A DNA stretch of 33,503 nucleotides from Hondaea fermentalgiana (taxonomy: Eukaryota; Sar; Bigyra; Thraustochytrida; Thraustochytriidae): the NCBI GenBank assembly GCA_014084085.1, contig NPFB01000032.1:190904-224406 (forward strand), in the 5' to 3' direction. Position numbers and translations under genes: made by a program. Each line of letters begins with the position of its first letter. The stretch's first letter is position 1. The notes under the pieces are model-generated. The model was given only the letters and a program-made list of their open reading frames with translations. It had not been told where the DNA came from and searched no databases. Positions 1 through 30,668 of the stretch are shown here, piece by piece.

Positions 1-52
<52 letters not shown>
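1..52. repeat. (CTGG)13 microsatellite
   Basis: Thirteen uninterrupted CTGG units start the window, followed by degenerate GGCT units to about position 66. The array is cut by the window edge, so its full length is unknown. Confidence 0.95.
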
Positions 53-55
<3 letters not shown>

Positions 56-458
56 GCTGGCTGGCTGCGTGTGGCAGTCAGTGGCTGGCTGGAGGCGGCG
101 CGAGCGAGGCGTCGGCGGTCAGTGGCAGCAGGCAGGAGCAGGAGCAGGAGCAGGGTTTCCTTGCTTGCTTCCTGCTCGCCATCATCGGGGTTCATCGTCC
201 GTGGATCCATCCATCCGTCCGTCCGTCTGGGCATCGATCGACCAGCTAGATAGAGCAGCCGCAAGAAGCGCGGCGTGGTGCAAGGTTGATCGATCGAGGG
301 ACGCTCGCCAGCCAGGTCGCAGCAGGCAGAGACAGGCGTCGGCTCTGTCTCGGGCCCCGTCTCGGAATCCCCTGCGGCGTGCAGCCAGGTGCTTGTTTTT
401 GCTCGTTCCCGCTGGCTGTTGCCAACTTGTGGTCACACCACGACGGGTCTTGCTTGCC

Positions 459-484
459 TTGTCTTGTCTTGTCTTGTCTTGTCT
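459..484. repeat. (GTCTT)n pentanucleotide repeat
   Basis: About five copies of GTCTT lie in the upstream region of the AP2 gene. No coding signal overlaps it. Confidence 0.9.
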
Positions 485-860
485 CACCCCGCCAGCTCAG
501 CTGTCAGGCCGCAGCACACGGCTGAACGGTTTTCTCTTTCCTTGGCTCGTTTCGCTCTTTCCATCCATCCATGCATCCACACGTCTATCCGCTGGCCGTC
601 CAACCATCCATCAATGCCCTTTTCTTTTCGACGCCAGCCAGCTCTTCGCTCCGGCCGCGCGCGAGTGGTTCGTCGAGAGGTGATCGCTCGATATCTATTC
701 TCGATCGAGACGATCTGTTTGACCAAGACAGAGAAAAAAGAAGGAAAGAATAAAATGCAGGAAAACCAGAGTGCCGGAAAGAAAGCAAACACACGACAGA
801 GCAGGGAGCGGCAAAAGGCAAACGCGGGACCGCCGCTCCTTCCCCGCCCATCCGCCCGCC

Positions 861-882
861 GCTCGCTCGCTCGCTCGCTCGC
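861..882. repeat. (GCTC)n repeat
   Basis: Five and a half GCTC units lie within the ATG-free tract upstream of the AP2 gene. Confidence 0.9.
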
Positions 883-925
883 GTGCTCCCGCGGCCCAGT
901 AGACCGTTTCGCCCGTGCCCGCCAA

Positions 926-960
926 GCAGCGCAGCGCAGCGCAGCGCAGCGCAACGCAGC
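926..960. repeat. (GCAGC)n repeat
   Basis: About seven GCAGC units, the last ones degenerate, lie within the ATG-free tract upstream of the AP2 gene. Confidence 0.85.
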
Positions 961-1801
961 ACGCAGAGTGGTAGCGTGCGGTGGCTCGCGTCTTGGCGCC
1001 AGGGTACAACCTCGCGCTCCCTGCGTCGCATCGGGCTCGCTCTCGCCCGGACCCACCCAGCCTCTTCTGCGGAGTCCCTGCCTCGCCGCGGGCCGCGACC
1101 GAGCGGCTTCCCGTCGCGCTCGCTCGCGCGCGGGCCGACGCCGGCCGCGAGCTGCGGCGCGACGCAGCCCAGACTTGCCTGCGTCGCGCGAGCGAGAGCA
1201 GTCGCGGCAGGCGCTGCGATCGCGGCGCAGCAGCAGCTCGCATCGTCGCCTCTGTCTGCATCCATCCATCCATTCATCGCTCGCCGCATCTCCTTCTCCA
1301 TCTCCGTCACCCGTCCAGCGCTCGCAGAGCAGGAGCGGCGAGCTGGCTGGCGGCCGCCGGCGCTCGGCCTCTCGCGCGCAGACGCGGCGAGAGTCTCGCT
1401 CGCCGGGCGCTCTTGATCTCGCCTCGACGCGAAGGCGCCGCGAGCGCGAAAAAAGCGACCAGGAAAAGAGGAGGGAGAGAAAGAAAGAGGACGACAGCGA
1501 GCGAGCCTCGGAGCGACTCGCAGATTTGGCGGAAAAACGATTGCGCCGCGCGCCTTCTTCCTGCGCGCCCGCGCTTCTTCCTGTCCGCCCGCAGCCCGCT
1601 CTTCGCCTGTCTCGCCTCACACCGCCCTCCTCCTGGCCTGCCCTTCTCCGCGCCTCACTCCCGCGTTTATCCGCCCGCGCTCGAGTCCCGGCCCGCTCGG
1701 GGCTGGAGCACGCGGAGCGCGTCCGAATCGGCTCGGATCCACTCGACTTTGCGCGGCGCGGGACGGCTTTCTTGATCGATCGACGGGCTGGGTGGCGTGG
1801 T

Positions 1802-1880
1802 GCGTGGTGTCTGCTGCCACTTTTTTTGCAGGTTTTACCTTACCCCTCCCTTCTCCCTTTCTTCTTTCCTCCCCTTCCAG
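1802..1880 (+). other. Two tandem splice-acceptor-like sites in the AP2 leader
   Basis: A T-rich run ends in GCAG at 1831, and a second 45-base C/T-rich run ends in CCAG at 1880. Each has the polypyrimidine-plus-CAG form of a spliceosomal acceptor. I could not match them to a strong donor within the window; a weak GAG|GTGATC occurs near 680, and a donor could lie to the left of the window. If used, they would mark a 5'-UTR intron of the AP2 gene. Confidence 0.3.
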
Positions 1881-2149
1881 GGTTCCGGGCGTCCGGGACC
1901 GGCAGAGGAAGAAGGCGCGAAGGAAGGAAATCCGGCGTCGCCGGGACTTTGCGTTTTCGAGGTCGCGGCAGGCCGGCCAGGTGTACCTCGAGGAACTTGA
2001 AAGAAACGTGGGAGGACGTCAAGGCGGGAACGCACTCACGCACGTAGCAGAGTCAATCTCGAGGCCAACAAGCGAGCGGAGCTGAGGACATCAACAACAA
2101 GGAAGGAAGCCAAAAAAGAAAGTCTTGCTCCAGCTAGCTCTAGCTTTAG

Positions 2150-2190
2150 CTTTGCTTGACTTTGCTTTGCTTTACTTTGCTTTGCGTCGG
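2150..2190. repeat. Degenerate (TTTGC)n / TAGCTT repeat
   Basis: A run of TTTGCT, TTTAGC and related units gives a strand-asymmetric T/G/C tract with few A residues. Confidence 0.75.
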
Positions 2191-2470
2191 TGAGGCTTGC
2201 CTTTTGCCTAGCTTGGCTTTGCTTAGCTTTCGCGTACCCAGTCTCCGCGAAACTCCCCAACGAAGCAAGTTTCACCCGAACGCGCGCTCCAAGGGACCCA
2301 GGGTTTCGTGAGCCAATTAGTCAGTCAGTCACCCACGTACGGACGCACGACATACCCAGGCTCGGCCACCTCCGTCGGATCGGAAGCGCCGTCTTTCCGA
2401 GGGCTTCCTCTGCTCCTTGACCGCGTCCCGTTCCTCCTCGTCACCCTCTCCCTCCCTCGCACGCACACAT

Positions 2471-2503
2471 CCGTCCATCCGTCCATCCATCCATCCATCG
2501 ATC
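2471..2503. repeat. (CCAT/CCGT)n repeat
   Basis: Eight four-base units alternate CCGT and CCAT. The orientation places CAT, not ATG, on the sense strand of the AP2 leader. Confidence 0.9.
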
Positions 2504-3071
2504 CGCCGTCAATTGGGCGCTGCATCCTTGGGCCCTCTGTCGCGCCTCCCTTCATTCACTTCTTTCTCGCCTACCACTGCCAGCCAGCCACAGCAGCTCT
2601 ACTCGCTTGCTTCCCCCCGCCCGCAGAGCCAGGTGTGGCCCACAGATAAATCGCGCGCTGCGGTGCGCTGCGGAGTGCGCGCTGCGGGAATCGGGGCTGG
2701 CGCGGCGGGACCTGGAACCTCCTGGAACCTCGCGCCTGCAGGCCTGCTTTCATTTTCACTGGTTTATCTATCTGCCTCCTATTCCTCCTCGCGTGCGCAC
2801 CGCCGGCGCTGTCCTGCCACGATTCGCAACCCCTCCTCAAGACACATCGTTTCCCCCCGAGCGAGCGTGCGTCGCTCGAGCTCGCGCGTTTCTGTCCGGA
2901 GGACGCGGGAGAGAGGAAGGAGGCTCGCGAGGCGCGGCACGGCGAGAGGGACAGAAAAACTCCGGCCGGTCAGAGGCGGCGGGCCTCGCTGGAACGGGCA
3001 GACAGACTACAATCTAGAGCGGCCGGCGCACGGACCGCGAAGGACAGGAGAGGAAAGGCGCGCTCACAAGC

Positions 3072-3089
3072 ACGTACGTACGTACGTAC
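3072..3089. repeat. (ACGT)n self-complementary repeat
   Basis: Four and a half ACGT units form a fully self-complementary block about 380 bases upstream of the AP2 start, followed by two ACAT units. Confidence 0.9.
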
Positions 3090-3148
3090 ATACATCGGCG
3101 GAAAGACAAGCGCCGCAACCGAGTCGGGTCTCCGTTTCTCTCTCTCTG

Positions 3149-3170
3149 ACAGTCAGTCAGTCAGTCAGTC
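3149..3170. repeat. (AGTC)n repeat
   Basis: Five and a half AGTC units. The same unit recurs at 2319-2331 and, much longer, at 32312-32354. Confidence 0.9.
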
Positions 3171-3463
3171 GTTTAACCTGGAGCGTCTGGGCCTCGGGCG
3201 AGGGCAAGCAATTTTGCAACTCCAGCGAGCAAGGGAACCGAGCCTCGCCAAGCAACCAAGCAACCAATCAAGTGACCGAGGGAGAGCCGCTTCGCCGCGA
3301 GAAAGGCAAAGGAGGCCAGGGACGGACGGGACGCACAGGCGGAAACGCGTGGGCTTTGCCTCGGGGCAGAGCCCGCGAACGCAGCTTCAGCACGCTGGAG
3401 CGCCAACCCGTGGGCGTGCTGGGACCGGGCTTCCTCTCGCTGCCCTTCCTCACGTCCAACTTT

Positions 3464-5335
3464 ATGATGGTCAAGAATGAGCTCGCGGACTTGCAAAAGG
3501 CAACCTCGCCACGTAAACAGCAGCAAGAATCGCAACAGGAGACACCAAAACAAAACGACCAATCTCTGCGCAAGAATGAAAAAGCAAACGAGGGAAATGA
3601 GCAGAACAAGAACGCCCCTGACGCCGAATCGAGCGAGTCCACTGGCCAAATCGAAAAACAGAAACAATCCCAAGCCTCCGCACCATTAGTGTCGGCAACA
3701 AAGGCCCACGTAGATGGTCGTGATGTCAAGACTGAAGCGACGTCGGGCAGCGCAAGCAGTCACATCGAAAAAACTGAAAAACATTTACGCTCCAGCTCCG
3801 GGTCCGCGCTCTCCACGTCGAGCCAAGGGTCGTCGGCCTCTGGGGCCAAGTCGAGCACCAGCGCCCGGCGCTCTGGCCTGAAACGCTCGCGACCGAGCTC
3901 ATGTACGAGCAAATTCAGAGGTGTTAGCTGGTTCAAGGCAAACCACGTTTGGAAGGCTCAAATCACCGTCAACGGCAAGTACGAATATCTGGGCTACTTT
4001 GAAAAGGAAACAGACGCCGCCTGGGCCTACGATATTCGCGCTCTTCAGGTGCACGGGACGTGGGCCCAACTCAACTTTCCCGACAAAATCGACCAGCTCC
4101 GCGAGGACACTCAAAACGATTGGATCGCAAAGCATAAGGAGAGTCAGGGTCTCAAGCGCTCGCGCAAACGTTCCGCAGGAGCAGCAGCGGCAGCGGCGGC
4201 GGCAGCAACCTCCTTGTCATCCTCCTCCTCCTCGTCATCCAAACCTTCCTCGTCGTCTGCGTCTTCTTCTTCCTCGTCGTCGCCAAATACTCGACCCATT
4301 CAGCTCGGCTTACCGATTGGACAAGGTCTCAACTTGAGCCCCATCCTCTCTGCTGCGCAAGAGCGGCAAAACTCCCCTGCCTCGCTCTCGGTCTCGTCTG
4401 CCTCTTCTTTGGCACAGCATCGGGGCTTGCTCGCTTCGCAACCGCTCTCCACGGCTTCGAGCTCGGGGACAATCACACCCACACACTCTTCGCCGGCAGC
4501 ACTTCTCGCTGCACTTTCACCGAATGGTCTTACATCTGCACCCATGGGCTCGCAGACTCCTCTAATGCAAGGAACTATGCCCGGACTTCAAGGCCTTGCA
4601 GGCTTGCATGAGCTCTTGGCGCAAAGCCGAAGTGCATCTCAGACGCAAGAGGCACAATCTATGCAAGGCGAAATGCTCCAGCTGCAGCAGCAGCAGCAGC
4701 GACTGCCCCCCGGGCTCTGGTCGTCCGCGAGCTCTCCTGCTTCTGCTCTTGCCGGTGTTGCTGCCAACGCTGCCAACAATGCCGACCGCGCAGCACTGGA
4801 AGGCATCATTGCGACACATGTGCTAGACATGCGCCGTCGAATGACTTTGCAACGCATTCGCTATCTGAAGCTCGAAGCCCAAGTTGTTGCAAACTGTGTA
4901 CCCGTGGACCCTGCGCTCGTGGCACGGTACCTCGACACGCGGATTGCGCTGGCACCTTCGCAGGAGGTCGATCTTCTCGGTAATATCCTCACAGACTTTC
5001 TTGACACATATCAAAACGCTGCTGCGCGTGTCACGCTTCTCGATCGTGTGCGAGGCATGGTCAGTGCGCTCGTGCGTCAGCTCGGGATCGACACCGCCAT
5101 CATTCAAGCTCGCGCAGGTGTCAGCATGCAGCACTTCATTCAGCTCATGCCAGAAACAAGTGAGCTCGATACGGCCACCCTTGAAACCAACACAGAACTC
5201 CTCACGGCGCTCAAGCAGCTCATCATTTTCTTGGTGGCAAGCCTGCAAAGTGCGCAACTTGGACAGGTTGCCGACGTTCTTTGGAATGCTGCAGCAGACG
5301 CTGGGCTTGTTGTCTCTGCGAACACGGCCACGTGA
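3464..5335 (+). CDS. AP2/ERF-domain transcription factor
   Basis: Single-exon CDS of 623 residues. I start at 3464, the first of two adjacent ATGs and the first ATG on this strand for 2.7 kb. Residues 1-148 are polar and charged (K/Q/E/S-rich), with no domain I recognise. Residues about 149-208 form one AP2 domain: FRGVSW is the YRG-type strand region, followed by WKAQI and YLGYFEKETDAAWAYD, the RAYD-type element. AP2 domains bind GC-rich DNA in plants, algae and alveolates, so a nuclear DNA-binding role is expected. Then come polyalanine, long polyserine (about 240-280) and short polyglutamine tracts. Residues about 440-620 look alpha-helical and ordered and match no family I know. The AP2 call is secure; target genes are unknown. 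Confidence 0.9.
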   Translation: MMVKNELADLQKATSPRKQQQESQQETPKQNDQSLRKNEKANEGNEQNKNAPDAESSESTGQIEKQKQSQASAPLVSATKAHVDGRDVKTEATSGSASSHIEKTEKHLRSSSGSALSTSSQGSSASGAKSSTSARRSGLKRSRPSSCTSKFRGVSWFKANHVWKAQITVNGKYEYLGYFEKETDAAWAYDIRALQVHGTWAQLNFPDKIDQLREDTQNDWIAKHKESQGLKRSRKRSAGAAAAAAAAATSLSSSSSSSSKPSSSSASSSSSSSPNTRPIQLGLPIGQGLNLSPILSAAQERQNSPASLSVSSASSLAQHRGLLASQPLSTASSSGTITPTHSSPAALLAALSPNGLTSAPMGSQTPLMQGTMPGLQGLAGLHELLAQSRSASQTQEAQSMQGEMLQLQQQQQRLPPGLWSSASSPASALAGVAANAANNADRAALEGIIATHVLDMRRRMTLQRIRYLKLEAQVVANCVPVDPALVARYLDTRIALAPSQEVDLLGNILTDFLDTYQNAAARVTLLDRVRGMVSALVRQLGIDTAIIQARAGVSMQHFIQLMPETSELDTATLETNTELLTALKQLIIFLVASLQSAQLGQVADVLWNAAADAGLVVSANTAT

Positions 5336-11951: not shown

Positions 11952-12001
11952 GAGGCTGGCGAGGCCGGGCGAGGCTGGGTGAGGCTGGGCGAGGCTGGGC
12001 T
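11952..12001. repeat. 10-bp tandem repeat (GAGGCTGGGC)5
   Basis: Five units of a ten-base motif, the first ones degenerate. This period is longer than the 4-5 bases typical of this window. Confidence 0.85.
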
Positions 12002-12518
12002 GGACGAGCGCCCCGCGCGTCGCTTCCCTCGGCGCCTCGCTGCTCCAGGCCGGTAGCGCATCGGTGGCACCCGCGATAATCGGTGGCGCTGCTCTTGCAA
12101 GGACCTTGCAATGTGACGGATGCAATGCGATGGGATGGATGCATGCGAGGGAGGTCGCAAGCTCCGGGTCCGTCGCCTCTCCGAGGAGCTGGGCTTACGT
12201 GGAGAAGACGCGCTGGCAAGACCTGCACGTCGCTGTCGCTGCTGTCGCTAGCAGGGCTGGAGCGGTCGGCGGCGGATCGATTCGCTGGCGGGGCACGCGC
12301 TGCGGCGCGAGGCGATCCCGGAGGAATCCTCGCGGCCTCTCGAAGCCAAGTCGAACCAGTTGGCATGCATGCAAGCAAGCAGGCGACTTCGCGCGTGATG
12401 TCTGCTTTCGCGCCATACAGCAGGTTGCCCATACTCGCGCTTCCCCGGAAACTCATCCCTTACCCGTCGTCCGGCAACTCGCCGCCAAAGCTGCAGAGCG
12501 TCAGCAAATGATCGCTCT

Positions 12519-12552
12519 CGATCGATCGCTCGATCGATCGATCGATCGATCA
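12519..12552. repeat. (CGAT)n self-complementary repeat
   Basis: About eight CGAT units with one CGCT variant. The block is self-complementary and could extrude as a hairpin. Confidence 0.9.
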
Positions 12553-12801
12553 AGCGGACCCTCATGGCAGCTGCAGACGCCGGCGGGAGCGGCGCGCGCG
12601 GATTCGGATCCGGGTTCGGGCTGGATTTGCGTCGCCACTCCAGTCTTGCCTTGCCTTTTTACTTGTGGCCGAAGACCCGCCCCAGGGGACGGGCGACCCA
12701 GGGTCCTCGACGGCTCCAAGAAGCCAATCATGATGGTGCGAGACGCGCGCCGCCACCGCTGCCAGCAATGCAACCAATCCACCAGCCAGCTCCACCAAGC
12801 A

Positions 12802-12839
12802 AGCCAGCCAGCCAGCCAGCCGGGCGGGCGGGCGGGCGC
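12802..12839. repeat. (AGCC)n followed by (GGGC)n
   Basis: Five AGCC units run directly into five GGGC units. (GCCAA)n follows at 12866-12887. Confidence 0.9.
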
Positions 12840-13277
12840 GAGCGCAGCGTGCCAAGAAAAAAGCAGCCAAGCCAAGCCAAGCCAAGCCTGGTCGGCACGG
12901 CGCGCCGCACTGGCTCTGCGCAAGCAAGGGCCGCATCACGAAGCGGTGATCCGCGCGGGACAAAGAAAGAAAGGTGGCGCGCCGTCGCCTGGGCCCCGCA
13001 ACCGGCCCGTCCCCCTTACCCCCCTGCTTCCCTCCCTCTCCCGCCGCCACTGGTGGCCCGGCGCCTATCTTCCTGCTGGCAACGACGGACCGGCCGGCGC
13101 CGGCGCGCGAAAAGAACGCGAGGCCGTCCTTGGCGCACGAAACCGTTCTGTTCCAGCACGGGCGGCGCGTGCAGGCGGTGCGGCGCAAGTGTGTCCGCGG
13201 GAAGAAGGAAGAGAGAATCGGAAGCAGCGATCTGCGGGCCGAGAGGCGCCGGAGGGGACGGGAGCTATCCGTCCTGC

Positions 13278-13351
13278 TTCTTTCTTTCTTGTTTTTCCAT
13301 TCTTTCTTTCATTCTTTCAATCTTCTTTTCTTTCTTTTCTTTCTTTTTTCC
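13278..13351. repeat. (TTTC)n pyrimidine tract
   Basis: About 74 bases, almost all T and C, with CAT, TTG and CAA interruptions, in the zinc-finger leader. Confidence 0.85.
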
Positions 13352-13587
13352 ATCTTGCTCTTTACCACATTTGTAAATACAACAAGCAAACAAGAAAGCT
13401 AGCAAACAAGCGAGCGAGCGGGGGCGAGAGAGAGATAGAAGGAACACAGAGAGCGCGAGCGAGGGCACGCCGCGTGCGAGCCTGGTTGCCGGCCCCGGGA
13501 AGTGCGGCGCGGGGGCCCCAGGCTCCGAAGCGACGAGGCAGGCGGCTGCAGCTCTGCAGCAGAAGGTTGCGGTCGGCAGACTCCTAG

Positions 13588-13613
13588 CGAGCGAGCGAGC
13601 GAGCGAGCGAGCG
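13588..13613. repeat. (GAGC)n repeat
   Basis: Six and a half GAGC units lie in the putative zinc-finger leader. Related (ACGC)n at 14074-14095 and (AGCGAACG)n at 14251-14278 follow in the same tract. Confidence 0.9.
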
Positions 13614-14954
13614 GCACAGCTCCTCGCATCGATCGCATCGGCGCCACCTTGCGTGCTTACTCGCTCGCTCTTTGAAGGTCCTTGCCTCCGTGAGCCCAGC
13701 GTAGGTTGCGCGCGCGCAGAGAAGCCCAGCGCAGAGCCGCGCAGAGCAGAGCAGAGCAGAGCGCAATCCCACGCGCAGACGACGCGAAGCGCAAGGCGTG
13801 GTGAAGGTGACGCGAAACGAGGTGACCTGCAGAAGGCAGTAGCACCAGCGCCAAGGGTGCCGGCGACACGACGTGCAAGTAAGAGGCGAGGCCAGCAAGT
13901 TAGCAAGCGGCCAGTGGCAGCCGCACGCTCGCCTGGCACCTACCTGGCTCTCATCATCAGCCAGTCAGGAAACTCCAAACAAGGAAACAAACAGCCCAAA
14001 CTGGAATTCTGGACGGACGCAAAGACCAAGGTGCCTCCACATCCCTTGTCTGGCTGGCTGCTTGGCTGACGATACGCACGCACGCACGCACGCACCTGCA
14101 CGCCCTTGCGCATACATACATATACACCAGTGCAGCAGACCCGCTCGACCCCCTTCAGAAAACCACGCTTTTACGCTCGCGTGCACGGTCTGCGTTCTCA
14201 CCTTTGGCCAATAAATTTACTCGTCTCGCCCAGCCCAAGCGACGTCGGCAAGCGAGCGAACGAGCGAACGAGCGAACGCAGGCACAGACTTCTTTCGGCG
14301 AGACGAGCTTGGCCAAGGTTTGGACTCAATTTGTTTTCTGTCGCGGCAGCTTGAAGGCTTGTGATTCATTCATTCAAGACGTTCCTCAACCGTGGTAGGA
14401 GAATAAGCAAGCGAACAAAGACAAGCAAACGTCCTTGCTGGTTGCGCGCATCGAGTCAACTCTGTCATCAAACAACCAATCAGCCCGACAAGCGAGTCTC
14501 CCTCTCCCTCTCCCTCTCCGCCCCTCCCTCAGGCAAACTCGTATTGCATAGCATCGCATCGCGACGCGAGTCCTCTGCCAGCTAGGTGTCCTGAGTCTGG
14601 GTCCGGGTCCGGGCTGCGTCCCCCGCCGTCCAGCCCACCACCACTCGCGCTCGGCGCGGGCCTCGCCTCCGCCGCGCGCTCCGAGCGAGCGAGCGTCCTC
14701 GGTCGGGGTCGAGGGAGCGGAGCAAGCAGAGTTTAGCAGAGTCTCCCGGAGGCGCCGCGCGAGGGAACCCGCGCCTCCGTCGGGATCGACTGCATCTATC
14801 TTCGCCCGTCCATCCGTCCATTGCGCCCGCTCGATCCATCCATCCACCGCTCGACCGGGCGGGCGCGCGTCGCGCCCCGTAGCCTGCTCGCGCGCGTGCC
14901 TCGCGAGCGTGCGCCCCGTGCGTGCGCTGCGAAAGCAGCGCAAGGCGGGACACG

Positions 14955-14963
14955 CAGGTGAGT
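14955..14963 (+). other. Strong splice-donor consensus (CAG|GTGAGT)
   Basis: A perfect GT-AG donor consensus with cut 14957/14958. A pyrimidine-containing acceptor candidate ending in GCAG lies only 86 bases downstream (15043), which would define a short leader intron. No transcript evidence is available. Confidence 0.4.
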
Positions 14964-15243
14964 ATCTGACACGGACTCGAAGCCCGCGAGCCCGGCTCGC
15001 CTCGCGCGGCTTTTTCGGGCCGTCGCTTCTATAGCTTGCGCAGCTTTGGTTGGAGCCTGCCTGGACGTGCCCGCGCGTGTCGACTTCGTCAAGCTCGCGC
15101 TGCGCGAACAGGCCGAAAGCTTAAGACGAAGCAAACAGCTTGGACGAGAGTAAGAACCGGAGAGCAAAGCAAGAAAGCAAAGGCACTGGCAGTGACCAGT
15201 GGTCCATCCATTCGAGCAGCAGCAGCAGCAGCTCTCGCGAAGA

Positions 15244-15252
15244 AAGGTACGT
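15244..15252 (+). other. Strong splice-donor consensus (AAG|GTACGT) opening the ATG island
   Basis: Cut 15246/15247. The first plus-strand ATG after 2.6 kb lies 100 bases downstream. An intron starting here and ending at an acceptor such as 17258 (CTCTTCTCCTGCTTGCGTGTCCAG form) or 17578 (CTGAC branch-like sequence, then GCCGCAG) would remove every ATG between 12771 and the zinc-finger start. Confidence 0.4.
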
Positions 15253-15346
15253 GCATCATCGTTCGTTGTCGCCGTGACAAAGTTCGAGGAGAGGAGGGGA
15301 AAGGAGACCTTGAGGAGGGGGGGGGGAAGAGAGGACGCGGCAATCG

Positions 15347-16236
15347 ATGACCGCGAGCGGGAGAGCGGGAGAGCGAGTGGACAAGATCCTGGCGCGAGCC
15401 CAGCCCAGTCGCCCCCTTGCGGGACACAGCCCGCCCGCTCGCTCCCGCAAGCGAGTGCGTGAGTGAGTGCGGGAGCGCGTGAGTGCCGTGCGTGCGTGCG
15501 TGAGTGAGCGCGCGCGACCCCGAGGTTCGCACAATCGTGCGCGTGCGCTTTCATTCTTTGTTTCTTTGTTGTTGTTTTTCTCCGCCAGCCCCGCTCCGCT
15601 CTGCTTTGCTGGGCCGTCCCGTCCAGGCGCGCGACGACGGCCGCGGCGGCCTCCTTTCCCCTCTCCTCGCCAGCCGGCTTTCGCCGCAGCTCGTGCGCGA
15701 TCTTCCTCTCCGCAGCTCTTGGGAGTTCACGCACGCAGAGAGCGCACCGAGGATGAAAGGAACGCGCGACAGAGCAAACAAAGCAAACGGAGCAGCAGCA
15801 CGACGAGCGCCGCGCTCGATGCAGACGAAGGAGGCGGCTGGGCCTCCCTCGCGCGCATGCAGGGCGGGAGGCCCGCGCGGCAAGTGCTCGGGCCGCGTCA
15901 GCGTAGCGTTGCGGCGCGAGAGCGGCAGAGGAATGTGAGCCGAGCTCGCGCACTCTGCCGCTGCGGTACACACTCGCAGTCTCGGGCAGCCAGGCCGCCA
16001 GGCGAAGCCTTCATGCATGTACGCGTGTGTAATAAACGAAGGCCCTCGCTCGCCTGCGAAAGCTTGCCAGCTAGCTCGGCTTGCTAGCTCGCTTGCTTGC
16101 TTGCGTGTGAGCTTGAGGGAGAGACCGCGCTCGCCAGGCCCGGTACCTTCCGGGCCGCGACGCGAAGCCGCAGGAAGAGGCGAGGGGCGCGAGGCGAGGG
16201 ACGCGAGGCGAGGCGCGAAGGCCGTCGATGCACATG
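15347..16236 (+). other. ATG-containing island, putative intron segment in the zinc-finger leader
   Basis: About nine plus-strand ATGs (15347, 15752, 15819, 15856, 15932, 16013, 16017, 16228, 16234) occur in 890 bases, an ordinary density for this composition, between two ATG-free tracts. No recognisable protein is encoded. Confidence 0.35.
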
Positions 16237-16667
16237 CCTGCGCGCCGTGTCGCTGCCGCTGCCGCGAGCGCGAGCGGAGGCCAGGCGAGTGTGCGGTGAA
16301 GAGCAGGAGGAGGGCGAGAGAGTAAGCAAGCACACCGGCGGTTGTGCCAGCCGGTCGCACGCGAGGAGGGCAGAAGGAGCGCTTGGTCGCGGCGCACACC
16401 GATAAAAACAAGCGAGGAGAGGAAAAGACGGACTTGCCGCGGTGGCGGAGCGAGCGTCTAGCACGACCCGGGCAGGCGGGACTGACGCGCGCGGCGGCGG
16501 GGAGGAGGAGGGTGGAGGGACGGGGGAAAGAGGGTGCGCGCGCGGCGGCACCAATAGGAGCAAAGTGCACCGACCAACTGACGAACTTGCGGGCCGCGCA
16601 GCGCAGAAGATTTTCACGGAGCTTACGAGCGCAGACAGCATTCGAAGAGAGAAAGGACAAAGGCCAG

Positions 16668-16742
16668 AGAAAGAAAAGGAAAGGAAAGGAAAGGAAAGAA
16701 AAAACTTTTTCTTTCTTTTCTTTTCTTTTCTTTTCTTTTTTC
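16668..16742. repeat. Purine tract followed by complementary pyrimidine tract
   Basis: A (GGAAA)n-type purine run of about 37 bases is followed, after AAAAAAC, by a (CTTTT)n-type run of similar length. As RNA, the arms could pair over about 30 positions using A-U, G-C and G-U pairs. Confidence 0.75.
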
Positions 16743-16904
16743 CTTTACATTCCACTCTCGCTGCTCTTTCTGGTGGCTCGAGCACGGCGGCACGCCTGGC
16801 TGAGCAGTTCGAACTGGCTGGCTGATTGCGCGATAGCCTGTGTGTATACTGAGAGACGACTTTTTCGCTCTCATTTACGCCGGGCCACGCACTCACTCAC
16901 GCAC

Positions 16905-16924
16905 ACGGGTGTACACACACCCGT
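16905..16924. promoter_or_regulatory. 8-bp perfect inverted repeat in the zinc-finger leader
   Basis: ACGGGTGT, spacer ACAC, then ACACCCGT. The GC-containing 8-bp stem with a 4-base loop is a plausible RNA hairpin or DNA-binding site. Confidence 0.55.
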
Positions 16925-17027
16925 CCCTGGCGGGTTCCGGCGGTAAAGCGTAAACCAGCGGGGGAGAAAGAAAAGAAAAGAAAAACCAGGAAAAAAGCTG
17001 CGTGTGCGCTTTTTCCAATTTCCATTT

Positions 17028-17048
17028 TCTCTCTCTCTCTCTCTCTCT
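17028..17048. repeat. (TC)n dinucleotide repeat
   Basis: Ten TC units follow a TTTTCC-rich stretch, then TTGCCAAG. It may act as the polypyrimidine tract of an acceptor. Confidence 0.9.
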
Positions 17049-17748
17049 TGCCAAGCCTCGCGTCAAGAGAGCCACCGTCGCCCACGCAGGTAGTGCAGAC
17101 CGCCTTCGCTCCTCGCGCCGCTCCCCTCGCCCGTTTTGTCCCGAGCAAAGCAAAGCAAAGCGAAAAGCGAGGCAGCCGTGGCCACAGAGCCTGAGCAGTC
17201 GTCGTCCCTCAAGCCCGCGGCAGAGCATCCCACCCTCTTCTCCTGCTTGCGTGTCCAGGCGCCCCGCCACTCGTTTGCCGGCGCTCCGGCTTGCGAGGCA
17301 GAACAAGCAACCAGAGCAAAGCAAAGCAAGCAAAAGCAAGCTTAGCAAAGCTCGCCCAGGGACGCGGCTCGACAGCCGTAGAAGCAGGTATCGCTCACTG
17401 CGACCTCGGCCGGCCAGGCCCGGGCGCCAAACGACAAACAAGCAACGTCACGGGCCAGAACTAGGCGCCGCCGAATCGCGGCGAGGAAGATCTGCGCACG
17501 GCCAGCTAGGAAGGGAAGGAAGGAAGGCAATCAGAGCCTGGCGCTAGCTCTCGCTGACTGGTTTGGTTGGTGCCGCAGGGAACCCACGGAAAGGGAAAGT
17601 AAAGGTAAAGGCAAGAAGCCCACCCAGCCGAGAGAGGAAGGAAAGAAGGAAGCAAGGAAGCAAGGCCCAGGCGGCCGCAGATCTGCAACGCGCGGAGCAG
17701 GGAGGGACGGCCCTCGCGGCGCCGCGCTGGTAAAAGACACAACAGACC

Positions 17749-19551
17749 ATGTACGAGACCGTCGGCAACGAGAACATCGGCAACGAGGCCGGCGAGGAGA
17801 TGGCGTGGCTCGACAATTTCGAGGACATCGAGGACGAGCACGGCGCACCGTCAGACATTAGCATCGCGTGGTCGCGAGAGGACGCCGAACGAGGCGGCAA
17901 CGCCAAGGACGACCTTGTAAGCCCCTCAATCGGCCCTTCGCAGGCCGCGGCAGAAGAAGATGGCTTGGAGGCCCTTCAGCTCAAGCCCATCGACCTCATC
18001 TTTCTCAACGAGCCAGACGCAGAGACCGAAGCACACGAAGGCGACCACGCAGCAGCACGCATGGCATCACAAAACGCTGCCACCGCTCCTGCTGCTCCTT
18101 CTGCTGCAGCTACTGCTACTGTCAGCGCCGCGGCAGACGCACCGCCATCAAGACCCAGGCACGCCATGATGCCTACACACATGCCACGACACTCCGAAGC
18201 CGCTCTGTCCTCCAGGGAGGAGCGACGTTCGCGTGAGGAACGCATGCTCGCCCGCTCGCCCGCAAACCCATCCGCCTCGTCAGTCCACGTGCACCCGGGC
18301 CACATGCCCGCCATGGCACCGTACCCATATGCGCTCGGGGCTCCTCCTCATCATCATCAACAACATCCCTACCCCATGGCGGCGGCGCCAGTGTACAGAG
18401 CAGGCCCTGACCCCTCGCACATCGATGCACACCTTAAACTTCAGGAGCGACAGCTGCTTGCTCAATACCACGAAATTCAGCTCGCGCGTCATGCCCTGCA
18501 GGTGCGAGCGCAATACATGCACGAAGCACAATACATGCACGATGCACATCTTCTCGCGAGAGAACAGCAAGCGCAATACATGCACGCTGCTGCTGCGGCG
18601 GCGGCGGCTGCTGGTGCTGCACCCATGACTCCAGCGGCCGCGGCAGCATACCAAACACATCGGCAAGGACCGCTCGGTCACTCGCGCCACGCCATGCTGC
18701 AGCGTGCAAATTCGGACGGATGCGCAACAATGAGACCGCTTGGATCCGCTGCGTATGCAAACGGAGTTGCGCACCATGGTCCAGTCACAGCCGCTGCAGC
18801 TGCAGCTGCAGCAACCCCTTTGTCAGCTTCGGCAAGGGCTGCTGCTGCTGCGGGTGGAGCGGCTGGTGCTTCTGACCTGCACCGAGCCACCTCCGACGAT
18901 CGTCATTGCGCCAAACGCCGCTTGTCTGAACATTACGGCCACCACGGCTGCATCAGCCCCAAGAACGCCAACGTAAAGCGATTTGCTGCGCTCGGCATCA
19001 ACGACACGCCTAGCCCAACGTCGAGCCCAGAACCCGACACAAATCAGGGCGTCAAAACTGCCATGCCAGAGCTGCACGCCACCCGTGTTACCAAGGCGAA
19101 CCGTCGCAGCGTGTGCGAGTTTTGCTTGCGCAAATTCGACGCCCCAGACGACTTGCTCGAGCATCGCGAGAAACACATTCTTGGCGAAAACAGCTTCACC
19201 TGCGTGCAGCCTGGCTGCCACAAGACGTACTCTACGGGTGAAGGTCTGCGTCTTCATGTGCGCAACGTTCATCTCGACGCCAAGATTTGGAGGTGCCTGG
19301 CTGATGACTGTGGTCGCTCCTTCGTGCGACAGTCAGACCTTCGCATGCACATCATCCGCATCCATTCGAACATTCGCCCCTTTCCTTGCGTGCTCGAGAC
19401 ATGCAAAAAGTCATTTGCTTGCCACTCCGAGCTCCGTCGCCACGTCCAATCGTGCCACAAGGTGTCGTGCCCCAAACCTGAAGACTGCAAGCCCGTCGTC
19501 AACCCGATGGACCTTGCTTTTGTCAAACGACTCATGCTCAAGCTCGAGTAG
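17749..19551 (+). CDS. C2H2 zinc-finger transcription factor
   Basis: Single-exon CDS of 600 residues, started at the first ATG after 1.5 kb. Residues 1-110 are acidic (D/E-rich), like an activation region. The middle, about 110-440, is low complexity: polyalanine, His-rich HHHQQH, and QYMH-centred repeats near 253-281. Four C2H2 fingers occupy 456-570. Finger 1 is C-x2-C-x12-H-x3-H; fingers 2 to 4 are C-x4-C-x12-H-x4-H. The spacing of the last three resembles TFIIIA- or Zic/Gli-type fingers and suggests sequence-specific DNA binding. TFIIIA itself usually has nine fingers, so a general regulatory factor is more likely. The C-terminus ends in a short amphipathic helix. The very long ATG-poor upstream region points to controlled translation or transcription. 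Confidence 0.9.
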   Translation: MYETVGNENIGNEAGEEMAWLDNFEDIEDEHGAPSDISIAWSREDAERGGNAKDDLVSPSIGPSQAAAEEDGLEALQLKPIDLIFLNEPDAETEAHEGDHAAARMASQNAATAPAAPSAAATATVSAAADAPPSRPRHAMMPTHMPRHSEAALSSREERRSREERMLARSPANPSASSVHVHPGHMPAMAPYPYALGAPPHHHQQHPYPMAAAPVYRAGPDPSHIDAHLKLQERQLLAQYHEIQLARHALQVRAQYMHEAQYMHDAHLLAREQQAQYMHAAAAAAAAAGAAPMTPAAAAAYQTHRQGPLGHSRHAMLQRANSDGCATMRPLGSAAYANGVAHHGPVTAAAAAAAATPLSASARAAAAAGGAAGASDLHRATSDDRHCAKRRLSEHYGHHGCISPKNANVKRFAALGINDTPSPTSSPEPDTNQGVKTAMPELHATRVTKANRRSVCEFCLRKFDAPDDLLEHREKHILGENSFTCVQPGCHKTYSTGEGLRLHVRNVHLDAKIWRCLADDCGRSFVRQSDLRMHIIRIHSNIRPFPCVLETCKKSFACHSELRRHVQSCHKVSCPKPEDCKPVVNPMDLAFVKRLMLKLE

Positions 19552-28928: not shown

Positions 28929-30668
28929 TGTTGCTATAGTTTTGCTGGGCCTCGAAGGCGAAGACGCTCGCTCCGTCGTCCTCGTCGATCTCGTTGACTC
29001 CAGCTGTGTCTACCTCTCGAGGTTCTTCGTGAGCGCGACTTGGCGACGAGGACGATCGACAGTACCTCGTCCTGATGTCTGTCTCTCCTGCTCCCAAGCG
29101 TCTTTCTCTGCTGCGGCGGCGTGCGCCGGGCTCGACAATCTTCTGATATCTCTGTCTCTCGTCGATCAATGCCGGGCCGGCCTATCAGCGGTCGGTCGCG
29201 TCGCGTCGTGGCGCGTCCAGGGAGCATGGGCCACTTTCATTTTCAATCAATGTAGTGTTATCAGAGAGGGACCGACCGAACATCGAATGCAACCAGCCTG
29301 GCCGGCGTCATGATGAGCATCAACCTCAGCATGATCATCATCAACAACAGCAAATTCATCATCACCATTATCAACCAGATCATAACATCAATATCAGCAG
29401 CTAGGTCTAGGTCAAGGCAGGCAACTCCTCGTCGTTCATGAAACTAGAGTATAACCTTCGCCGAAGCTGTGTCGGTGCAAGACTGCAAGGTCGCACTGAG
29501 GCGGTCGCGTTGCCCATCCGCCATGACCCTCGAGCACTTCCGCATCGTGGCGTCCATGCCTGCGACAGCGACGAGCAGCATCGTGGCGAATCCATTTCGC
29601 CCCCACCTCGAGGATACCATTATCATCACACTCCCGACCCGACATCCTACTACGTCTTCCCGCGAGTAAAGAAAAGCCCGCGCTGCGCCTGCGACCAGCC
29701 ATCCCGAGCTTCACCTCGCCGTGCCTGGCCGGCGCCGCTCGCCTCCTCGCAATCGGGATCGCGGACCGCGCAACTTTTTTCGGAGCGGCTGCCGCGTCCA
29801 CCCGCTGCACATCGACCGACCGAGCGACCGAGCGACGCGAGAGGATCAAGAGCCGAATGCACGAGTGCTTGACAACCCGCGAGCGAATGAATGAACGAAT
29901 AAACGGCCGAGTCTGGTGAGAACTCAAATGAATGGATACTCCGTGTATAGCTTGCCTCCCTCCTCTCTCTCTCTGACCGCCCGCGTGTGTGTGTCTGGCG
30001 GCGGTGGTTACGCACGCCCAGTGGCGGCGCCGGCAGTGGCGTAAAGAGCGGCCCGAAGTGCGCGTCGCGGCGGCGCAAGTGGCGCTTCTGCGGGCGCAAG
30101 TGCGGAATGCACACGCTTGGCCGCTCCTTTCTCCGACGCAGACCGAGTCAGCTTTGCTGCAGAGCAGAGCAGAGCAGCAGCAGCGCAGAGCAGCTGCAGA
30201 GCGACTCGACCCGACTCAAAGCAAGCAGGGCGAAGCAACGCACGGCGCAGCGCGGAACAGAAACGCGCTGCAGCTTGCAAGGCAGCCACGCAGCGCGAGG
30301 CCGCCCTGCTCCGCGCGGCGCAGACGCGAAGAGCGCGGCAGAGCGGCAGAGCAGAGCAGAGCGCGATCGCGGGGAGGAAAGGCGCCGCGGCCGACAAAAC
30401 AACCAGCGCAGCTCAGGCCGGAGCTCGCTTGCTTGCTTGCGAAGCGGCGAGAGCCTTCGTGCCTTCGCTCGGGCCCGCGGAGAGCGGGCGGCACGCCGGC
30501 GCCAGACGCAGAAGGAGGAGAAGGCGCGCAGGAGGCCCAGCGAGCGCGCGGCAAATAGGGGGCGCGAGCCAGCGCGGGAGAGCGCAGCCAGCCCGCGGCC
30601 GCTGCCGCCGCACGGAGCGCGTCTCTCGCGCCGCTGCTCCGCAGAAGAGGGAAAGAAGAGAGGACGCC
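28929..30668. promoter_or_regulatory. Divergent upstream region of MED11 and the ACMSD-like gene
   Basis: These 1,740 bases lie between two start codons pointing away from each other. On the MED11 side, 296 bases upstream of its start lack ATG on the minus strand. On the ACMSD side, 559 bases (30110-30668) lack ATG on the plus strand, though AT dinucleotides are rare there. A CAT/CAN-rich trinucleotide tract occupies about 29306-29405, reading His/Gln-rich in one frame. The 300-600 bases before the ACMSD start are very G/C/A-rich with GCAGAG units. No gene is seen inside. Confidence 0.5.
29306..29405. repeat. Degenerate ATC/CAT trinucleotide tract
   Basis: About 100 bases made of ATC, AAC, AGC and CAT-type triplets. 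One frame reads His/Gln-rich, another Ile/Asn-rich with a start ATG at 29311. Both stop near 29405. Triplet periodicity suggests a decayed microsatellite more than a gene. Confidence 0.6.

Follow-up and report, generated by a model that had tools for sequence, protein, structure and literature searches.

This locus raises the question of why the DNA directly upstream of an AP2-domain gene of Hondaea fermentalgiana lacks ATG over 2.7 kb on the sense strand, and whether a 5′ leader of that length could account for it. The gene lies in the window, the whole stretch of 33,503 nucleotides that was analysed. An earlier note on this DNA had claimed that the absence of ATG is confined to one strand, ends exactly at the AP2 start codon, is very unlikely to have arisen by chance and points to a leader that is either very long or spliced. 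An ATG desert of this kind would be a footprint, readable from sequence only, of an RNA that is transcribed and scanned.

The ATG-free stretch upstream of the AP2 gene

The AP2 gene and its upstream region comprise the following features.

3464..5335, plus strand: AP2-domain transcription-factor gene, 623 aa (coding score, phmmer)
758..3463, plus strand: ATG-free stretch, proposed as all or part of the AP2 5′ leader (shuffles, coding score)
571..757, plus strand: the sole three ATGs of the AP2 upstream region (571, 614 and 755)
1..570, plus strand: further ATG-free stretch 5′ of the focal desert (0 ATG, 8 CAT, 5.2 ATG expected)
1843..1880, plus strand: candidate 3′ splice site, a long pyrimidine tract ending in CAG (pattern scan)

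The focal gene encodes a predicted sequence-specific transcription factor. Its AP2 domain was placed at residues 149–195 by homology (phmmer against plant WRI1 from the PDB, 5.6e-10); the Pfam AP2 model gave 17.2 bits (E = 0.0062), below the cut-off of 33.3, and the gene is absent from the 22 Pfam matches. The protein shares 43% identity with a protein annotated with PF00847; over the AP2 domain it is 76–77% identical to two relatives, each 512 aa long, in a comparison that scored the 7979 candidates with the most words in common. Coding potential was scored by hexamers, with 36 long ORFs from the sampled DNA, possibly including the focal gene, as the training set; this score is 0.65–0.83 in the AP2 frame over the first 180 bases from 3464 and lies near or below zero across most of 758–3463 in all six frames; antisense or N-terminal coding within the desert was rejected on account of this small signal. 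The first ATG of the gene, at 3464, is in a weak context (T at −3) and the second, at 3467, in a strong one (A at −3, G at +4); a purine occupies position −3 in 41 of the 54 sampled starts.

The counts given in the earlier note were reproduced: 758–3463 contains 0 ATG on the plus strand and 24 CAT, corresponding to the minus-strand ATGs that had been put at about 24, and the ATG at 755 is followed only by those at 3464, 3467 and 3477, so that the desert does end at the AP2 start. The plus strand of the span holds 49 AT dinucleotides, from which 9.9–10.0 ATGs are expected on a first-order model of local dinucleotides. The span was picked as extreme, and its shuffle and probability values are uncorrected for this choice: none of 8000 dinucleotide shuffles lacked ATG, and one of 8000 did so once the CATC/CATT repeats had been collapsed, which retains 42 AT and 17 of the 24 CAT; at the rate at which G follows AT in intergenic DNA (986 of 3335 in sampled DNA lying over 500 nt 5′ of genes, focal gene excluded), 14.5 ATGs are expected and the probability of finding none is 3.5e-8, or 4e-7 after collapsing. 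The sub-spans are weaker than the whole, and individually weak, ATG being absent in 43 of 4000 shuffles of 758–1880, 4 of 4000 of 1881–3463 and 9 of 4000 of 758–2463, the part that stops over 1 kb short of the start codon.

ATG is the sole trinucleotide missing from the span; after it, TAA falls proportionately furthest below its expected count (2 versus 7.9). TAA is also strand-skewed in 758–3463 (2 TAA, 9 TTA), a skew that is not seen when five deserts are pooled. The span has a GC content of 65%, compared with 59.5% for the whole window. A lower degree of structure in the sense strand was considered and rejected, the difference in predicted folding being non-significant (mean MFE per 150 nt of −52 kcal/mol for the sense and −56 for the antisense strand, p = 0.10). 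An origin from a repeat or transposon was likewise rejected: apart from itself, the desert matches at least 41 other places, all over just 30–106 bases and mainly within two simple-repeat stretches (of 48 candidates, 40 were scored), and it is otherwise single-copy. The window is densely populated by tetra- and pentanucleotide repeats (CATC, CTGG, AGTC, GCTTT), mostly outside genes; its tandem-repeat list has 85 rows. An Rfam search of the window matched no known RNA element, and the window contains no tRNA genes.

The depletion extends 5′ beyond 758, the whole upstream region 1–3463 containing 3 ATGs compared with 18.2 expected. The stretch 1..570 is cut off on its 5′ side by an unsequenced scaffold gap that directly precedes the window; this gap measures ~4.3 kb (L043, 1700–6000) and has simple repeats on either side. 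The longest acceptor-like pyrimidine tract of 1–3463 ends at 1880. Such sites are not rare, since a second one is found at 3135. A consensus scan of 1–3463 found no strict-consensus splice donor; the donor of any leader intron would therefore be weak or lie in the scaffold gap.

Comparable deserts and upstream ATGs in the genome sample

A second regulator gene of the same window has a related arrangement.

17749..19551, plus strand: C2H2 zinc-finger gene, 600 aa (PF00096, 1e-9)
12769..15346, plus strand: second ATG desert, proposed as the first leader exon of the zinc-finger gene
14955..14963, plus strand: donor-like site CAG/GTGAGT inside the second desert (consensus scan)
15244, plus strand: donor-like site AAG/GTACGT inside the second desert (consensus scan)
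15347..16236, plus strand: cluster of 9 ATGs, 5.1 expected
16237..17748, plus strand: third ATG-free stretch, up to the zinc-finger start codon (17 of 3000 shuffles without ATG)

The second desert contains 0 ATG, compared with 14.3–14.4 expected, and 29 CAT; none of 3000 shuffles lacked ATG. It ends 2.4 kb before the zinc-finger start codon. In 12000–17748 the only strict-consensus donors are the two listed above (14955 and 15244); they lie a short way 5′ of the ATG cluster, which we propose to be part of a leader intron. The scan found several acceptor-like sites before the cluster and none after it.

ATG-free stretches of at least 100 nt were listed on both strands of the window and of loci L023–L043 (231 kb, 208 kb without N). 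Ranked by expected ATGs, the first is L027 2737–6934 (17.6 expected, 29 CAT), the second is the zinc-finger desert and the third the focal desert; all three are on the sense strand and upstream of regulator genes, and the next stretches reach 7.9 (L032), 7.8 and 7.5 expected. L027 is an AP2 paralogue with an ATG-free run of ~4.2 kb that is open at its 5′ end at a scaffold gap and ends at a single weak-context ATG (6935), the start of a 14-codon uORF, with the main start (7004) following 69 nt downstream; the L027 upstream region thus has 1 ATG in 4269 nt, compared with 18.4 expected. The desert at L027 2737–7004 is stronger than the focal one. A per-gene score that allows up to three upstream ATGs, with p values uncorrected for the choice of run or the number of genes (54), gave 2e-7 for L027, 1.4e-5 for the focal gene, 3.7e-4 for L032 and 0.003 for L023, the best antisense control being 0.0015. 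L032, an AP2 paralogue with a run of 1635 nt, was set aside: the scoring interval that precedes its ATG already has a coding score of 0.62, so that the run may include the edge of a coding exon. Five deserts, among them the doubtful L032, were pooled; as they were chosen for the absence of ATG, their count of 0 compared with 54 expected is not independent. CTG, GTG, TTG and ACG stand at 1.02–1.22 of expectation in this pool, and the depletion of stop codons is similar on the two strands. A shorter stretch of ~560 nt without ATG (30108–30668) leads up to an amidohydrolase start codon, where the antisense strand also lacks ATG, over 858 nt.

The sample drawn from the genome (36.0 Mb in 238 contigs) comprises 288 kb besides the window, with overlaps between loci. 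The ratios of observed to expected (O/E) ATG and CAT upstream of the sampled genes, in a count that treats one AP2 gene (L025) as a non-transcription-factor gene, were as follows for distances of 0–100, 100–250, 250–500 and 500–1000 nt.

50 non-focal genes, ATG: 0.63, 0.69, 0.79, 0.97
50 non-focal genes, CAT: 1.00, 0.80, 1.11, 0.95
25 transcription-factor genes, ATG: 0.38, 0.41, 0.72, 0.95
25 transcription-factor genes, CAT: 1.18, 0.63, 1.22, 0.91

The depletion fades within ~500 nt, and ordinary leaders therefore appear to be a few hundred nucleotides long; a kilobase desert is not the rule among the 51 sampled genes. There is also a weaker depletion far upstream, with ATG at 0.86 and 0.75 and CAT at 1.02 and 0.97 in the bins of 2–3 and 3–5 kb, which take in the L027 and zinc-finger deserts without separating them. 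The 500 nt that follow stop codons show no depletion of ATG (261 versus 252.2 expected). This comparison of ATG with CAT had been proposed in the earlier note, and half of the outcome that it had named as contrary to its view was found, in that the depletion covers only ~500 nt on average.

In a corrected set of 54 genes, which adds the AP2 genes L013, L028 and L036, the median ATG-free run is 388 nt in 30 transcription-factor genes and 179.5 nt in 24 others, the latter being a non-random sample made up of neighbours of AP2 and window genes (p = 0.006, or 0.009 without the focal gene). Runs of at least 1 kb occur in 3 of the 30 and in 0 of the 24. The ATG-free run exceeds the CAT-free run in the transcription-factor genes (p = 0.0006; for the remaining genes p = 0.10). 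ATG-free runs measure 80, 795, 659, 677, 97 and 388 nt in three HSF and three C2H2 genes. A partial match to the PUFA synthase PfaA was also found in the genome (461.9 bits, below the cut-off of 1010); PfaA matches occur in 11 of 14 control genomes, none of them over the cut-off. Taken with the GC content and the repeats, this match would point to a thraustochytrid.

The view that chance is very unlikely is upheld locally by the shuffles, but on the scale of the genome the focal desert alone is only moderately significant; the three deserts together are strong evidence.

A proposed long leader weighed against its alternatives

The focal desert is probably the 5′ leader of the AP2 gene, whether unspliced or spliced. 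This reading is the best supported because the depletion is specific to ATG, is confined to the sense strand, ends at the coding start and recurs in independent sequence, once before the AP2 paralogue L027 (4.2 kb) and once before the window's zinc-finger gene. The earlier proposal of a very long or spliced leader is supported in part on these points, but the average over the sampled genes, at only ~500 nt, does not bear it out. We infer that the AP2 leader is transcribed and scanned, and we extend the inference to splicing and to any regulatory role. The leader would measure at least ~1.6 kb (1881–3463), a length of 2.7 kb or more being probable; it may contain an intron with its acceptor at 1880. 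Cap-bound 40S subunits would scan it, and any AUG within it would divert them, so that new ATGs would be selected against, though on the sense strand alone; CAT and near-cognate codons could arise freely. The scanning ribosome would meet the weak-context AUG at 3464 and then the strong-context AUG at 3467. Such a length would allow translation to be controlled through structure, leader-binding proteins or alternative start sites.

Several observations speak against a leader of this kind. The average depletion in transcription-factor genes is over by ~500 nt, CAT is also low in these genes at 100–250 nt, and the first AP2 start codon is in a weak context. A leader of 65% GC would be strongly folded, and scanning should therefore be hindered. 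The TAA strand skew of the focal desert is unexplained by the leader model.

It is quite possible, if somewhat short of an even chance, that the leader is spliced, consisting of an exon at 1881–3463 and another 5′ of 571 or in the scaffold gap. The intron would then hold the ATGs at 571–755, which possibly are intronic, and a part of the desert that is ATG-free by chance; part of the desert may indeed be intronic, and no selection would be expected there. The acceptor-like tract ending at 1880, the absence of ATG from 1–570 and the similar layout of the zinc-finger gene with its consensus donors fit such an arrangement, and chance could account for 758–1880 at the shuffle frequency given above; the lack of a strict donor and the second acceptor-like site at 3135 count against it.

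Alternatively, the leader may be short and the far part of the desert promoter or enhancer DNA with strand-biased motifs that have nothing to do with translation. The limit of ~500 nt on the average depletion would suit this explanation, as would the other strand skews of the span (GAT 11 versus ATC 36, besides that of TAA), but we consider it unlikely, because ATG alone is absent and the trinucleotides that share its TG, namely CTG, GTG and TTG, are at or above expectation.

It is quite unlikely that the desert arose by chance, in intergenic DNA that is GC-rich, poor in AT and furnished with CATC repeats, and was picked as extreme. A Poisson probability of ~e^-9.9 per gene is rare for 54 genes, but a run of this size could be met somewhere in a genome of 36 Mb, where genes presumably number in the thousands, and the sub-spans are individually weak; against this, the top three deserts in 231 kb (17.6, 14.3 and 10.0 expected) all lie in the sense orientation upstream of regulators, and no antisense control falls below the per-gene value of 0.0015.

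A non-AUG N-terminal extension or an upstream coding exon is very unlikely, for although no stop codon interrupts the AP2 frame back to 2318 (381 codons) and small positive in-frame scores (0.13–0.25) occur at 3164–3283 and 3404–3463, the coding score rises only from 3464 and the relatives P0002 and P0003 start with MEL and MMEL, the focal protein with MM.

If the long-leader reading is right, ribosomes in this lineage would scan several kilobases productively, implying that scanning is highly processive and that the translation of transcription factors has a dedicated layer of control, and deserts would mark, in the genomic sequence itself, regulator genes with long leaders open to such control. 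Tentatively, and as something rather doubtful, we propose that uAUG-free leaders of 2.7 to more than 4 kb characterize a class of regulator genes in this lineage.

Comparison with known leaders

Long leaders are known in apicomplexans. In the thraustochytrid and protist literature on leaders and start sites no report on leader length was found, and the text of a Schizochytrium ATAC-seq paper (PMC10840233) makes no mention of UTR or untranslated. The earlier note had known of no named system among protists; none was found there, but kilobase leaders of transcription-factor genes are described for Candida albicans in the accessible text of PMC6034079, with 3041 nt for UME6, 2978 nt for WOR1, 2071 nt for CZF1 and 1139 nt for EFG1. 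As far as the available parts of the sources go, the leaders of UME6, WOR1 and EFG1 alter translation (PMC6034079; PMC7849906), and that of EFG1 carries a 4-codon uORF in one strain that is absent in another. The present locus resembles these four genes in that transcription-factor genes have kilobase leaders (1.1–3.0 kb there, putative here). Unlike the fungal leaders, which in those texts were studied at the RNA level, those proposed here are known from DNA, with the absence of uAUGs as their defining property.

Eukaryotic genomes in general have fewer ATGs before their starts than randomized genomes do, the selected 5′UTR region having a mean length of 27.1, apparently in codons, according to the available part of PMC3708879. 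The same selective logic would apply here. In contrast to that general avoidance, with its mean of 27.1, the stretch involved here is 2.7 kb or more, and 4.2 kb in L027; leaders of 2.7 to more than 4 kb would be longer than any that we found described as cleared of AUG by selection.
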